Positions 6,905-37,707 of a stretch of 64,000 bases of DNA are shown here, one piece after another (position 1 is the first letter of the stretch; every line of letters begins with the position of its first letter). The translations under genes were made by a program, and so were the position numbers. The DNA is from Crambe crambe. Its lineage: Eukaryota; Porifera; Demospongiae; Poecilosclerida; Crambeidae. The notes below the pieces were generated by a model. The model did not search any database, was not told the origin of the DNA, and worked only from the letters and a program-made list of their open reading frames with translations. Location: assembly GCA_963924555.1 (NCBI GenBank), contig OZ004591.1, positions 806,001 to 870,000 on the forward strand. Direction: 5' to 3'.

Positions 6905-8784
6905 ATGGCTGACCATGTTGGTGTCTACTGGTCACTCTTCAAAGGAGCATTCCCAGGTATATCTGCACCTTACACACAATTATATGAACGTTCTTTTCCC
7001 TCATGAACCTGTGCAGAGGAGTGGAAGAATGACCCTGAGTTTGCCTGCTATATGTCTGATCTCACCTCCTATTCTATTGAAAAACTTCGTGAGTACATAG
7101 CTATTCAAACAAATCACTAAAGAGTATCACCATGGTTATGCAGGACTGGAGCCTGATGCTCTTAAAGATGAAAAGAGGTTTGTGCTAAACTCCACTCAAA
7201 AACTGGCCTTCAATAACTACCAGGCATTCATAGAGACAGCAGAATGCACCAGGGAAGTCTTTAAAGAGGTAAATTATTGTATACGGTATTAAAGCTGTGT
7301 TCTATTTTGAATACCTTGGAACTTAGTTTGTGGCTGTGGAAGATCATGTTGGAAAACTGTTGGATAAGATTCCTGCATTCTCTACTGCTTGCAAAAATTT
7401 TTCTGTTGAATCACAGGAAGTCAATACAAGGTACGATTAAAATGTTCACTGTGAATCAATACAGAATCTGAAACCTTCCTTCTTGACCTATTTGAGTCCT
7501 TAAGACTTTGAGTCCTTAAGACTTTTATCCCTTACCTAAAACTCAACTACGACCTAAATCTCTTGATTTTTACATTTCATATCTTGCTGCCCTTCTCAGA
7601 CGTAAGCTGAATTCGCTTGCTCTTTCACGCCACACGCAATTGTTAGAGGTGTTGGAGATTCCTCAGGTGATGGAGACGTGTGTGCGTAATGGATACTATG
7701 AGGAAGCCCTGGACCTCAATGCTCATGTCAGGAGGATGGAAAAGAAACATGGAAACATTCCTATCATCAAGGTGTGACAAGCACTTTATACTCTGTAGAG
7801 CTGAGCTCCATAAAGTAAAGGAGATCACAGAAGTGAAACCTGTCTATAGTGATCACTTCTGGGCCACCAAAAGGTTGTCTCTTAATAGAGGTCGTACAAG
7901 CACTATTGGGACATAAGTTCACATAACCAAGTGGTCTCTAAATAGGGTGGTCTATTGACAATACTCGTGATGATCATGTGATAATCATGTGATGATCATA
8001 GGCCATTGGGAAGGATGTGGAAGGCTCCATGGACTTGATGCTTCACCAGCTGCTTCAACAGCTGCGGGGGACCATCCAGCTGCCTGCCTGTCTGAAGGTG
8101 GTTGGTTTTCTCCGCAGAATGGAGGTCTTTTCTGATATGGAGCTTCGTCTGAAATTTCTTCAGACGAGGGACAGTTGGTTCCAGGGAGTGTTGGGTCTCA
8201 TCCCTAAAGATGATCGTGAGTCACGTATATTAGGACTAGGGAGTGCTAATAATGAAGTGTGCATTAATTCAAGACCTATCTTCCTCCTCTCCAGCCTACA
8301 CTCATATCAATAAAACCATTGAAGTGAGTCGAGTCCACCTTTTTGATATCGTGACCCAATATCGTGCCATTTTCCCTGATGATGACACCATGAGAATTAG
8401 CTCTTCCATACTCCCTGTCGGAGGGGGAGGGGACAAGGTGGAAGGGGCTCTCTTCTACAGTTGGATTAATGAAAAAGTGGGTGTGAATCAATGGGTGTGG
8501 TTACCCCTCCCAAATTTGTGTATTATGTGTTGTGTTAGATTTGGAAGTTTTTGCATGTTTTGGAGGAAGATTTGAGTCGAGGTGTTGGCGGTCGCTTGGA
8601 CTCTTTGCTTGGACAGTGCATGTACTTTGGCCTCTCCTTTGGTCGGATCGGAGCAGACTTTAGGAGCTTGATTGTACCTGTCTTTGTGCGTGTTGCTCTC
8701 AACTCATTCAGAATAACTCTCCGTAACAGTAAACACGAGTAAGTAGAGAGAGTGTAATGAGGACACTTGTCATATTGAGACGAG

Positions 8785-8855
<71 letters not shown>

Positions 8856-10004
8856 GATTAGGATATAAAGTGTCTGCATTGAGACTTTCACTGTAGCTTA
8901 ATGATTCTTACCTATCTATATGAATGGCAGTAAAAGCCTCTTTCTGAAACTTGTTTTCCCATTCTGTAGATTTCATGAGGCGATGAAGCGTTTTGTATTG
9001 GTGTTGCCAATGAGAAGCCCCTCCACTCCTCACCCGTCGTCCTTCCGCACCTCAACCCTCCTCCCTTCTCCCCCTCACTCCCTCCTGGACTACCCCCCAC
9101 TGGCCAGTCTCACCAACGGACTCATCAAAGCCTTCAATGAGCTTCGACAGTGTGCCCCCCTTGCAGGGGGTCCTGAGATCTCCCAGGAACTAAAAAGACT
9201 GCTGGAGAGTACTGTGCATGATGTGGTGGAGTATCATAGGTGGGTGTGGTCTTATGTAGTGTGTATATATATGGAGGAGTAGTGGGTGTGGTCAGATCAT
9301 AGATGGGTGTGGTCTGATGTGTATGTTTATAGGTGGGTGTGGCAGGTGATTTTCCATGTACTGTATAAGCAGTTAACCCCAATGTGAAGGGAAGATCTTT
9401 TTGCTTGTTAATTTGGGTATCTTCATGTTTCAGGATTGAACACGAGGCATTTACTGATAAAGAGAAGGTGGCATTCAAACAACTTGTGCGCGTCATGATC
9501 AGTGACTTTCTCCCTTTTGTAAAGAGAACATTTGACAACCTCTACCCTGAAGATAAAGTCAGCCAACTTGCCCTCTCCACTCCTTACGCCCTCAGGCACA
9601 GACATGCTGTTCCCCTGGCCTCAGGGCGTGGCATTTACAAGGCTGGTGTGGATTTGAGAATGGAACTTAATGTCAGGGGAATTGGTGAGGGTTTGAGAAG
9701 TGTTGCTCCTGATGTGTTTGAAGACTTGGAACCAGAGAGTGAGAGACTGGAGTTAGAGCTGGATGAGTCCCAGGATGTGGCTGTAGGGGAGGGGTCAACG
9801 GAAGCTGGGGGTGGAGCTATGGAGTCGAGAGGACCAGGAGAAACTAAGGAAGAATGTGTAGAGAATTTGAACATAATAAACCAGCAGCAAATGAATACAG
9901 GCTTGGAAGAGAGAACGAGGGACGTTGTCACAGATCTGCAGTCAATTAATGAAGAACAAATAGAAGATAAGCAGTTGGAAGCAGCAACAAAGAAAAAAGA
10001 TTAA
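6905..10004 (+). CDS. COG8: Conserved oligomeric Golgi complex subunit 8, 10 exons
   Basis: Exons at 6905-6956, 7017-7088, 7144-7268, 7327-7430, 7600-7771, 8002-8215, 8295-8476, 8539-8738, 8970-9239 and 9434-10004 join to 653 codons. COG8 is a subunit of the eight-protein Golgi tethering complex that guides retrograde vesicle traffic and keeps glycosylation enzymes in place. Diagnostic blocks shared with animal COG8 are [53 protein letters not shown] (here [16 protein letters not shown]) and [15 protein letters not shown]. The C-terminal 100 or so residues are acidic, Glu/Gln-rich and poorly conserved, as in other animals. Introns are short and GT-AG; intron 8 carries a TA/GA microsatellite. 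Confidence 0.95.
7826..7958. repeat. Dispersed repeat in COG8 intron 5
   Basis: The sequence from GAAGTGAAACCTGTCTATAG to AGGGTGGTCTATTGAC resembles 17715-17825 in an MRE11 intron over most of its length, including AACCAAGTG and AGGGTGGTCTCTT-like blocks. It looks like a small interspersed element; the family is not recognised. Confidence 0.5.
8788..8850. repeat. (TA)n(GA)n microsatellite in COG8 intron 8
   Basis: A run of TA dinucleotides passes directly into a run of GA dinucleotides. It is non-coding and lies between exons 8 and 9. Confidence 0.9.
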
Positions 10005-32808: not shown

Positions 32809-35800
32809 GGGCGAATTTTTTTTTTGGGACCACTTTCGACTTAGAAAAATTTACAATCCTGTAAGGTCAAAGGTCATATAATAAAGTTTGCTCATTCACG
32901 TGCATGCGCATGCAATGTAGCTATTGCATTACATGGGTGTACATGATGGTGTGCCAGATGCTTCAAGGCAACCAAAATAAATGAAATAGACTGAAGGAAA
33001 AAATCTCATTGACTAGCTAGCTACAAACTACCATTTGCCAGCATTTTGAGTTCCAGATAATATATTTGCTTGTAAAGAATGCAATCTTTTCCCAGGAGGT
33101 TGCTTGCGACATGGAAGTTGGTATCTTGAAGTTGGGTATTGGGCAATTTTCATCCCTTTGGGACGCCCTGAAGGTAGTTTTGCTTTGCCTCTTGACACAA
33201 ATTTGCGTCTACGGCCAGCTGCTTTGGCATTAACTGGAATTCTTCTGCCACGGCGCATATATCCACCTTGAGAGGATCTAATAGTTCCTCCGAACACCCA
33301 TCCAAAACGATGGAGAGCACTGGATAGCCTTGCATTCTGAAATGTTCCATTCTGAGTTAAATTTTGATATCTTCTCAGAAAAGTCTGCATCCCTTGTGCT
33401 ACCACAGCATTTTCTTTGACTCTTGTTGTGATGTCATCAGCAAACTCCTGAATTTGTTTCTCAATTGCATCAACATCAATTTTTCTGCTGTTTGTGGGAT
33501 CCTTGAAGTCAATCAAGTCAGAGTCAGGGGTATCACTGTTATCAGCTTCAGACCGCACTAGATTCCATGCAGTTCCTGAGAAATCCGACAAGTCAGGTTG
33601 GCCAACACCATTCTCAGCAATAGCATAATCATCACACTTTTGTTTTTCGTGAAGAGAAGAATAGAACGTAGGATCCTGAATGGCTTTAGGACCGATTGCG
33701 ATTTCTGCTAAAATTCTTCGTGTTTCTGGTGATTGTGATGGTATGCAGTTAACACTTGGAATTTTGAAAAGATTTATTATGGCGGCTTGATGAGAACATG
33801 GGGAACCATCTTGACCGGCAATGCAGCTACATACTCCCAGCTTCATATCAACAAGGTAAGACACTCCACGCTCACTTTGACTGCTGACAAGATAAGTTAG
33901 GTTTGATTCATCTAGCTTTTGCACTTGAGCTAGTGAAATACCCGAGCATTTTAAGCCCTGAAACTTGAGCGAAATGTGTCGATCAAATCTGTTGTGTGCT
34001 ACACTAAGTATCTTCCTGGTGTAGTACAATTCTAGACACTCTGTAACAAAACTGAACATTTGAACCAGGTTATATGCCTTCACTCGACTGAATACCAGAT
34101 CCTTTAGGATTCTAATACCTGCCTCAGCATAGTTATTTGTGTGATTTCCTCTTACAAGAAGCTTTTTTCGATAACATAAAGCCCATTCTTTTCGACGATC
34201 CCACTGAGATTTGATATACTCAGAATAGTGAGGATATTTCTTCCCGACATCACTTTGCTGGAATTCATTATAAAAGCGAAATAGTTGATCTTCTGTGTCA
34301 GCATATACCATCATTTTTGTTTTATTAATGAGGATAGAACGATCCTCATTAGCAATTTGATTTTGGCCATCATGTAGCCATGTCCATTTTGCTTGTAAGA
34401 AATGAAATACACAGAGAAGACGACATGTGGCAGGCCACACTGAATGAAGTGCATTCCTTTCTGCAAGTGAATCATCGGTCATTACTACCATAGGTCCCTG
34501 CTGGACTCCACGACCATGAAATGCTTCATTTGGTAAGACTCCCTTTAGCATGCTCAGTCCATGTAACAAAGTTTCTTCTTGTTCATCTGATGTAATCATT
34601 ACAGCTAAAGGCATTCCACCAGTGGGATGACTAGTGGAGAGGATGAATAAGGATGTGTTAAACCTGTCTAAAGTTGAAGTGGAATCACAAAATACTACTT
34701 CTTCAGCTTGCTTAATACACTTGTGAACTCGAGACATCAAAGGGGTACATATTGCAATTATCATTGGTTTCTCTCTTCTTTCTTTTGTGTTTTTTCTTTT
34801 CTTCCTAGGAGGATTATCAGAATCCGAAAAGTCAGAATCCTCACTATCTGATACATCTTCATAATTCTGAAAAAACTGAAAGTCTGCTTTACCTCCAAGC
34901 TTGCTACTAGCATTGTTATATGCTTCAATTTCTGATTGCAGCCTATCAAACATTGACTTTCCATTATCATTTCCTAGTTCCTTCTTCTGCCACTCAATAA
35001 ACAGCCGACTTATGTCAGTCTTTGTAGGATTATGAGCCCTGTCTGCCAGCAAGACCTGGTCTTCACCACCGTCAAGAAAAAGCTTAGTCTCATGCCAATG
35101 ATAAGCAGAAGAAGCTGTGTGCCCCTTACAGAAAAGCTCATAGAATTCTTCTTTAGTTTCTGGAGCAATTGGACGAAAAGACAGGACATGGGCTGAACCA
35201 ATTGGATGGTTATGATTGAAAGTGATTTGGACTACAGTAGGGTGAGTTAAGAGAAAAGGCTTATCTCTTGATTGCATCTTATCTTTCTTTGTTGGAATAT
35301 TCACGGTTACAGTCATTTTTGAAGGACACTCCGTTTTCTTTTGCCTGTTATCATGTGCTAAAACTTTCCTGGAATTTTTTGATTTAGCTTCAGCACTCTT
35401 ATGTTGCTGTTTCAAAGAAGGGGTCTTTTTTTTGTGCTGGCAATGCATCATAGCTTTATAGATAACTCTTTTCAAACCCAACTGTCTTCCTTTAGTATGC
35501 CGATATGTGCAACAACAATGGCTCATCATTTTCTGCATCCAACTTTTAGCCGAGTCTTCATTGGTAATATTAATTCGTATAGTAGTTTTGTAAGCATACA
35601 TAGGGGCTCCAGGAAAGCGTTCAGTAGAAAGAGTGGTGAATTCAGTGATAATATAACTAAAGTTCTTATCAGGTGGTAGAAGATTTTGTAATGCTGGGTT
35701 AAGTTTCTTCCATTCACATACTTCATTAACAGATTCGACAGCATTTGAAGCTGATTTTGAGACTTTCTTTATATCATCACCAGATATACAAACACTGGAG

Positions 35801-37235
35801 GGTTGATTTGCCATTATAGACAAATTTTCTTTTTGAGATGAGAAGAAAAAGTTTCGATCTTGAATATGACCATTTTCAAGCTCAGTAGCGATGATATTAC
35901 GAAGTAAAGGCATATGATCCTATACATGTGAGCATGAATAGAGTTACTACATAATTAAAAGTTACATAATTATAGTTTGCTGAAAATATACTGTGAGACA
36001 GTTGGCACATATATATATACATGTAAGTGTAAGGGAACAATGTACTTCACTGTAAGTATAGGCTGTTGCTAATTGCTGTATGTAATTTATAGGGGCTATC
36101 AAACATTTACCTGGGAGAAATACATTGGAACTCTTAGAAGCACACAGTATGCGAACTAAAAAAGCAAGAAACATTTAGCTATCTGCTGCAGCATAAAACA
36201 CCATGCTCACCTGAGCCACAAAAACACCACAGTCACTACCATTTAATTGCTTGGGAATGCTCTACAAGAAGAAACAGCATTATAAATAGTAATCTATAAT
36301 TGTATCTATTTTTTTCCAGATCTCTAATTGCTAATTTAGAACAATGATCATGTGCCGATATGTAGGGGGCCTGTCTAGTCCTTATTTAAATGGATACAAG
36401 CCCACAGGAATAATTACCTTTTCTATGGTAAATGTCCATTTACTCCAATCAAAACATTGGTAGCCCAGTAGCTTTGCTTCATAATCAAGAAAGTACCTAT
36501 GAAGATCATTATAATAATGGTCACTCAAAATGCTCAGTGATATAATTAGTTGAGCATACCACATGTGAGGTGAAGTAAAATAGTAACACTTTTCAGGTAA
36601 AAAGGAATCGTAATACTTTACAGATTCACTGTTAGGATCAATAACCTATAAGACAATGATTGAAGATGGTATTATAATAAACTTCCAAACCAACCATTAG
36701 TGTCCAATGATTTCCTTCAGGATTCAGGTACCAAAGAATGAGGTCTGCTCCAACAATATCCTGAATTATTGGAAACTTTATGTATCATCAAAGCGCAAAG
36801 CATAACTTTGATACCTTTCTATGCTTCCAATGCTGTGTTGCTTCCTCACAACTTCTTTTGCTCTCCAATAATTTCATTAGCTGACTTGATAATATTACAA
36901 CAGTAATACCATGTCTCTATAGCAGTCGAAATATCAAGTAAATTAATAATGATGCTCTACTCTATACCTTATGAGCTTCTGCTACCAACAAGGAGAGATA
37001 CGAACCAATTCCCTAGAGAGAGAGGAGGGAGGGGAAGCTAGGAGAAGCTATTCTAGCCATGTAGGTAGTCTTACACAGTCAGATATCCAGTGACCCTCTC
37101 GGAACCTGCTGATTTCGTCCATCTCTCAGCACGCGGTCGGCTGGCAAGGTAAGACCACTCCTACTTATTAAACTTTGAACTCCGTGCAAGTGGATTTTCT
37201 AAGTCGAAAGTGGTCCCAAAAAAAAAAATTCGCCC
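32809..37235 (-). mobile_element. 4.4-kb MULE transposon with terminal inverted repeats and Ulp1-transposase gene
   Basis: The left terminal repeat (32809-32848) runs from GGGCGAATT through a T-run to GGGACCACTTTCGACTTAG. The right end (37195-37235) is its reverse complement with a one-base difference in the T-run. Between them lies one spliced minus-strand gene that fills most of the element (33028-37122). No clear target-site duplication is visible: the 9 bp at the left are TACCCAGTA and those at the right are CAGGCGGCT. The reading frame is intact, so the element may be recently active or under selection. It sits 171 bp upstream of the P1 start codon. Confidence 0.85.
33028..37122 (-). CDS. 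Ulp1 cysteine protease fused to MULE transposase, 8 exons
   Basis: Minus-strand exons 37122-37075, 37012-36968, 36916-36815, 36760-36695, 36645-36418, 36261-36211, 36155-36111 and 35919-33028 join to 1158 codons; all seven introns are phase 0. Residues 1 to about 205 form a Ulp1/SENP-type protease: NHWTLM (catalytic His), YYDSF (Asp), KQLNGSDCGVF (Gln and Cys), then the family's closing FSQDHMPLLR, which crosses the last splice junction. Then follow a FAR1/FLYWCH-like zinc finger (HCQH, ECPSKM, FNHNHP), an acidic linker and a nuclear-localisation-like PPRKKRKN. The MULE DDE core comes next (VVFCDST, D about 606; MVVMTDD, D about 677; CVFHFLQ; NNYAEAG, E about 794), then a SWIM finger (CSCIAG...CSHQ) and a basic C-terminus. 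It resembles ZSWIM1/3-type MULEs. Exon 4 uses a GTTGGT donor. Confidence 0.9.
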
Positions 37236-37258: not shown

Positions 37259-37332
37259 TAGTCTCGCGTAGCCAGACCCTTTCCCGGTTTTTGGCGCCAA
37301 AAACCGGGAAAGGGTCTGGCTACGCGAGACTA
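37259..37332. mobile_element. 74-bp perfect palindrome flanked by 9-bp direct repeats
   Basis: TAGTCTCGCGTAGCCAGACC through to its exact reverse complement, with no unpaired base, centred on GGCGCC. ACTCCTACA lies directly on both sides (37250-37258 and 37333-37341), consistent with a 9-bp target-site duplication like those of Mutator-like elements. It inserted 24 bp beyond the end of the 4.4-kb transposon. Confidence 0.85.
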
Positions 37333-37491: not shown

Positions 37492-37707
37492 TAAGGTAAA
37501 GCGGGGCTATTTCGAACGGCGGGGCTATTCCGTAGGTTCAAATATTTCTGAAACTACTGAGACTTCTGAGGCTCAATGTTGGAGGATATAATCTACTATA
37601 ATAGTAGAATGTATCTTTCAAAATAGAGCTCGTAAGCTCGTGGAGTTTTGAAAATATTTGACCCTACGGAATAGCCCCGCCGTTCGAAATAGCCCCGCTT
37701 TACCTTA
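37492..37707. mobile_element. 216-bp MITE with about 52-bp inverted repeats
   Basis: Begins TAAGGTAAAGCGGGGCTATT and ends with the reverse complement AATAGCCCCGCTTTACCTTA. The arms continue through CGAACGGCGGGGCTATTCCG and AAATATTT. The interior is non-coding. The terminal TA may be the target site. Confidence 0.85.

Follow-up and report, generated by a model that had tools for sequence, protein, structure and literature searches.

A Mutator-like transposon of the sponge Crambe crambe that probably carries a Ulp1-type protease as the N-terminal domain of its transposase

Why would a DNA transposon carry a SUMO-type protease at the front of its own transposase? The question is raised by a 64,000-nucleotide stretch of the sponge Crambe crambe, hereafter the window (C14:806001-870000, contig OZ004591.1 of assembly GCA_963924555.1, in a 143-Mb genome of 119 contigs), which holds a 4.4-kb Mutator-like transposon on the minus strand at window positions 32809-37235, with terminal inverted repeats (TIRs) of about 40 bp at its ends. 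We think it probable that this locus is an autonomous-looking Mutator-like element (MULE) in which an intact Ulp1/SENP-type protease forms the N-terminal domain of the transposase gene, and that it belongs to a clade in which some sisters also carry a USP deubiquitinase. This reading is built from sequence comparisons: a TIR-bounded unit with predicted exons that join in phase and keep the protease and DDE motifs intact, further copies that are nearly identical, and the recurrence of this gene in a second, divergent family, which we call family B.

Does the element encode one continuous protein? On the minus strand, eight exons running from 37122 to 33028 join in frame into 1146 amino acids with no internal stop or frame break when translated together; every exon length is divisible by three, and all seven introns have GT-AG ends and are in phase 0, the phase that the initial annotation had proposed. 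Exon 1 (37075-37122), with the start ATG and the motif HWISDC (W12 at 37089-37087), and exon 2 (36968-37012), the N-terminal part of Ulp1, were placed by translation and by alignment to family B. Exons 3 (36815-36880) and 7 (36111-36155, terminating in FSQ) are Ulp1 by translation and Pfam. Exons 4 (36695-36760), 5 (36418-36645) and 6 (36211-36261), placed by translation, Pfam and an alignment to SENP1, carry the catalytic His (H71, 36709-36707), the catalytic Asp (D88, 36609-36607), and both Gln (Q156, 36249-36247) and the catalytic Cys of NGSDCG (C162, which a manual count from the translation puts at 36231-36229). Exon 8 (33028-35919), assigned from its translation, Pfam and a 24-row protein alignment, opens with the last Ulp1 helix (DHMPLLRNIIATEL) and continues into the MULE transposase with D595, D665/D666 and E782, a SWIM-like C-x-C..C-x-H motif, and the stop codon TAG. 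We infer that the window mRNA is spliced as modelled. An inverted-repeat search places the TIRs at 37195-37235 (minus strand, 5' relative to the gene) and 32809-32848 (plus strand, 3'), which agrees with the proposed boundary repeats of about 40 bp; the pair consists of a 33-nt perfect arm and an outer 20-nt arm at 95% identity, and its 23-nt core occurs twice in the window against 0.00 expected.

Is the protease domain complete? The Pfam Peptidase_C48 profile (PF02902) matches residues 44-197 of the window protein at E 1.2e-16 (61.7 bits against a cut-off of 20.7), and this match crosses the last intron. SENP1 and SENP2 are the top PDB sequence matches of the window Ulp1, with SENP1 the best (E 5e-16), and the catalytic His, Asp, Gln and Cys stand in register with those of SENP1. 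The domain extends past the Pfam match, as HWISD.. in exons 1 and 2 aligns with QWLTDE.. of family B, and these two exons supply the catalytic domain's leading Trp motif. The profile match and the SENP1 alignment bear out the complete Ulp1/SENP catalytic domain that had been predicted, and we consider it likely that the window protease is active. SENP1 and SENP2 share the C48 domain with the window protein, but they are not fused to a transposase. No fusion of Ulp1 to MULE is among the six protein matches for residues 1-330, which include SENP1 of a sea cucumber and an Aspergillus protein named as ULP1, and the 209-amino-acid Ulp1 domain alone returned no matches; these searches depend on shared 5-residue words, such that an absence of matches means little. 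Two further Ulp1 frames lie elsewhere in the genome (L016 835-1824 and L017 1174-1875), one with a sub-threshold HIRAN match and the other followed by a PHD finger; a pairing of Ulp1 with a PHD finger is also listed for Ginger1 transposons in passages of PMC2836005.

What of the transposase? The PF10551 MULE profile matches exon 8 just above its cut-off (E 2e-6, 28.6 bits against 27.6). A protein search with this exon gave 71 matches, and 23 of these together with the window protein make up the 24-row alignment, in which MULE was matched at E<=1 in every row. The second Asp pair, the Glu and the C..H motif are invariant across all 24 rows, and the first Asp is present in 23, with Asn in P0007, in line with the expected conservation of the DDE residues. 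The zinc-finger labels fared less well: the FAR1-like finger finds no Pfam match at E<=1 among the 24 rows, and the SWIM finger holds for 22 of them at that threshold, although the window protein itself falls below the cut-off (E 0.0086). An AlphaFold model from the 24-row alignment reached a mean pLDDT of 66.9 and, among PDB entries, matches the ISCth4 transposase best (E 1.7e-6). Some of the 71 matches belong to the same species or a very close one: in a tree, P0057 groups with family B on a branch of 0.0013, and P0025 resembles a protein of another family discussed below (family F). DNA scans of genome and viral contig collections with the MULE alignment, which gave 190 + 18 pattern stretches, confirmed no relatives outside this genome.

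If protease and transposase form one protein, their junction should be visible in relatives. The last Ulp1 helix is encoded at the start of exon 8, and it is found at the exon start in 12 of the 24 rows, chosen by recognisability, all of which keep its Arg and Glu; of the other 12, P0024 starts within the helix, P0006, P0025 and P0030 have different residues there, and the rest start at a later point. Together with the Pfam match to residues 44-197, the helix rows uphold the earlier claim that the closing motif of the protease spans the last intron of one predicted gene. In P0015 and P0020 the predicted proteins extend upstream into what, in protein letters, may be a polypyrimidine tract and CAG, and these upstream letters could fit an intron at the place of the window's last intron. 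It might be argued that the transposon instead holds two genes, a Ulp1 gene rich in introns and a MULE gene that has none and begins within exon 8, as in the KI-MULEs of plants, where passages of PMC2528002 and PMC13317346 describe Ulp1 as a gene separate from mudrA. There is indeed an ATG two codons into exon 8, and several database proteins start at the matching Met. But such an arrangement would sever the last helix of the protease and leave it at the front of the transposase, where half of the aligned rows retain it, and family B has an extra phase-2 intron between helix and MULE part with phases that fit one frame. We regard two genes as unlikely.

The single-gene reading gains from a second family of the same genome. 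A Pfam MULE scan gave 54 matches, 30 of them with loci, and seven of these (L040-L045, L047) are closely related to the window protein (tblastn E <1e-100). L055, L056 and L057 are copies of one 6.2-kb element, family B, with TIRs of 50-53 bp and 97.7-99.4% identity; perfect 9-bp target duplications flank two of the three copies read, and genome-wide its TIRs form five perfect pairs plus three single near-matches. In L056, for which we modelled 21 exons with matching phases by hand, Ulp1 (PF02902, E 4.6e-21) and the MULE exon (PF10551, E 6.3e-10) form a single 1119-amino-acid frame; SWIM has no Pfam match at E<=1 in that exon. Family B and the window element are 29% identical in Ulp1 and 36% in MULE, and the catalytic Ulp1 residues are intact in both. 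In our reading of this alignment, six of the window's seven introns share aligned place and phase with a family B intron and the seventh lies one codon off in a gapped stretch, all of them in phase 0; family B has two introns beyond these seven. Upstream of Ulp1, L056 also encodes a 334-amino-acid USP (PF00443, E 4.1e-35, profile positions 2-254 of 254) in exons at L056 1159-2885 (C16:731658-733384). If a candidate 52-bp intron, whose acceptor is weak, were removed, this USP would run on in phase into Ulp1, for a total of 1455 amino acids with one terminal stop. The Ulp1-MULE frame is kept in two of the three copies: L055 retains it and has a 2-bp deletion in USP, and L057 is disrupted in both. 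With all frames open in one of them, these near-identical copies lend themselves to a direct test of whether the protease is needed.

How widely is this arrangement spread in the genome? The order USP, Ulp1, MULE recurs in L058 on C8 (family C), with an 8-bp target duplication that is one base off at one end, and at a C5 locus (L062+L060, family F), where USP (tblastn E 2e-14) and Ulp1 (about 4e-6) match those of family B; a further locus, L051, has a decayed USP and Ulp1 followed by a linker resembling that of family B. As a genome query, the Ulp1 of family B found 49 matches; the five copies of that family account for most of them, and others lie a few kb upstream of MULE matches on C5 (7.57 Mb), C8 (family C) and C19. 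A USP lies within 9 kb upstream on the same strand at 13 of the 54 MULE matches, against one downstream and none on the opposite strand (98 USP matches genome-wide); random placement over equal contigs gave a mean of 0.15 upstream cases and a maximum of three in 2000 trials. Among the 13 are five family B copies, two copies belonging to family F and two near-duplicates on C12, such that independent cases are fewer, and Ulp1 was read at part of these loci. L063, between USP and MULE matches on C1, has weak Ulp1-like motifs only and was not counted. Some side observations may be added here. The MULE frames of family F (L060 108-4091 and L061, on the minus strand; 1328 and 1200 amino acids) have long GPLTPT-like repeats between linker and transposase, and L051 has extra frames at about 7400-9000, beyond the decayed USP-Ulp1 element, which resemble part of a BEL/Pao-type retrotransposon. 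Nine similar-looking USP matches lie away from MULE matches (C1:7369889, C18:4284883, C8:3283282, C11:5074452, C10:4003498, C11:5322809, C9:6095375, C16:3941217, C14:2936003), cover up to 205 of 254 profile positions, several with internal stops, and are perhaps another USP-carrying repeated element.

Is the window element itself mobile? The search for further copies with the same ends, which the initial annotation had suggested, located the TIR core at six places in the genome with up to two mismatches. L007 is a second copy with a TIR pair, differing by 40 substitutions in 3703 aligned bases (99% identical) and flanked by a 7-bp repeat, GCCCTCC, read by eye; L008 and L009 are fragments. One could ask whether the window copy, the sole intact family member found, is rather a domesticated host gene of transposon origin, and FHY3-type MULE-derived genes have been described as domesticated transcription factors in Amphimedon and other animals in the passages available from PMC10027918. 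The matching TIRs at both ends of the window element, the near-identical TIR-bearing copy elsewhere, and the mobile-looking family B with its TIRs and target duplications make domestication very improbable in our view, and some of those FHY3-type animal genes could in part be live transposons like the window element.

Several observations do weigh against an intact, mobile element with a conserved protease. A 722-bp deletion in L007 took out the exons with the His, Asp and Cys of Ulp1, and two 1-bp insertions disrupt its MULE exon. A genome search with the window Ulp1 protein gave five matches, all within the window copy or L007, and intact Ulp1 exons of this subtype were found by whole-genome search in the window copy only. 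No clean abutting target-site duplication was found at the ends of the window copy; a 7-mer, TGGGTAG, is common to both flanks, 7 and 3 bases off the ends, and in 20000 draws two random window 16-mers shared at least seven bases 0.7% of the time. Family C is decayed, with Gln in place of the catalytic His and Asn in place of Asp. Lastly, when the genome was scanned in six frames with the Pfam Peptidase_C48 profile, eight places came up without the window among them; the window was missed because its Ulp1 exons are short, and exon-wise scans therefore undercount Ulp1. The loss in L007 would also be in keeping with a passively captured host fragment, as in Pack-MULEs, that plays no role, and passages of PMC13317346 describe MULEs as often taking up gene pieces. 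Such a fragment would hardly be expected to keep its catalytic residues and its introns at matching places in two families at 29% identity, or to recur in families C and F, and we find passive capture quite unlikely.

Within this clade, did the window element lose a USP or never have one? We built a tree of 30 rows (the window protein, family B and 28 of the 71 protein matches), in which the window protein and family F (P0025) share a branch of support 100/99 from which family B is excluded. Homology between the USPs of B and F would imply that the window family has lost its own, which we propose tentatively because the outgroup rows are long-branched and were grouped in 52% of bootstrap trees. 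It is conceivable, at somewhat less than even chances, that the sisters make one polypeptide of USP deubiquitinase, Ulp1 deSUMOylase and DDE transposase, 1455 amino acids in L056, and that the window element is a derived form without the USP. If true, both kinds of deconjugation in the SUMO-targeted ubiquitin pathway would reside on the transposase itself.

What might the protease do? The likeliest role in our view, though one we hold with some doubt, is that it frees the transposase and host factors at the element of SUMO, and in the sisters of ubiquitin too, which would counter silencing or turnover. The protease would travel with the transposase to transposon ends and chromatin and strip SUMO from the transposase and from neighbouring host proteins. 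Such deSUMOylation would oppose both SUMO-dependent silencing and SUMO-targeted, ubiquitin-dependent turnover, and the USP of the sister families would strip ubiquitin in the same pathway. Another role, suggested earlier, is that the protease cuts the fusion protein and so processes the transposase itself, for which its N-terminal position might speak. Ulp1/SENP enzymes cleave after the Gly-Gly of a folded ubiquitin-like protein. Residues 181-330 of the window protein have no Gly-Gly, and a ubiquitin-like domain is not among the Pfam results; self-processing is thus not supported and strikes us as the least probable of the alternatives.

Next to the element, two repeats adjoin it, a perfect 37-nt palindrome (window 37259-37332) and 64-nt inverted arms at 94% identity (37492-37707), which are perhaps small non-autonomous elements. 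The window also has filamin, Cbl and nidogen-domain sequences, in keeping with an animal host.

How does this architecture compare with known systems? The closest precedents are Mutator transposons of plants, Hydra and lancelet for which Ulp1 has been reported (PMC2836005, citing Repbase Reports 2008 and 2009 for Hydra and lancelet). The Hydra and lancelet MuDR elements, as cited there, are like the window element animal members of the MULE superfamily with Ulp1, and a claim made for the window element, that it founds a distinct metazoan class, is overstated because animal Ulp1-bearing MULEs were already reported there; what stands is the position of Ulp1, N-terminal to a MULE transposase in one TIR-bounded element. 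The passages of PMC2836005 mention no USP, in contrast to the sister families described here. Plant KAONASHI/KI-MULE and KIU (VANC-Ulp1) elements also combine MULE and Ulp1 but, as far as passages of PMC2528002 and PMC13317346 describe them, they are non-TIR elements with a separate Ulp1 gene, reversed relative to mudrA in KI-MULEs, although same-orientation cases are known from melon, rice and grapevine (PMC2528002, in part); in the window, Ulp1 is on the same strand as and in phase with the transposase exon, and TIRs are present. Animal Ginger1 elements resemble the window in that an Ulp1 or OTU protease domain is part of the transposase protein, but there, according to passages of PMC2836005, the transposase is Gypsy-integrase-like, the protease is C-terminal and target duplications are 4 bp, as opposed to a MULE transposase with an N-terminal protease. 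Rice CACTA-ULP, of a different superfamily, unites a Tnp2 transposase domain with ULP1 in a single protein (passage of PMC2528002). A protein of Trichomonas in which another transposase is fused to a C19 peptidase is also on record (passages of PMC2836005 and PMC2528002). Deubiquitinase-type proteases occur in MuDR-6_HM, a cnidarian MULE with an Ovarian Tumour (OTU) gene rather than Ulp1 or USP (PMC6446971, in part), and in Helitrons, where VTD and OTU deubiquitinases are part of the transposon protein, though these are rolling-circle elements with other protease families (PMC9741609, in part). The main text of the MULE survey PMC6446971 has no words beginning ULP, protease, peptidase, sponge, Amphimedon or accessory, and searches of open-access PMC full texts turned up neither a MULE transposase with Ulp1 at its N-terminus nor an element that combines USP, Ulp1 and MULE. 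As far as searched, the N-terminal position, its retention in several families of the same genome and the presence of a USP as well are apparently unreported, and the USP-bearing sister families are the more surprising part.

Ulp1-like domains occur in several transposon superfamilies, and passages of PMC13317346 describe their role as unknown; the same source reports that plant KIU/VANC elements, some of which have such an Ulp1 domain, cause related elements to become hypomethylated. Deubiquitinases of transposons have been proposed to protect proteins required for transposition (PMC9741609, in part), and for Ginger it was suggested that the ubiquitin and SUMO pathways take part in transposition (PMC2836005, in part). 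Ulp1 and USP proteases may help elements escape host control. Set beside these systems, the sponge elements have a protease that is apparently part of the transposase and kept across divergent families, with a second deconjugase alongside in sisters, an architecture that permits a direct test of whether transposition, or escape from silencing, requires that SUMO, and ubiquitin, be stripped from the transposase or from chromatin.

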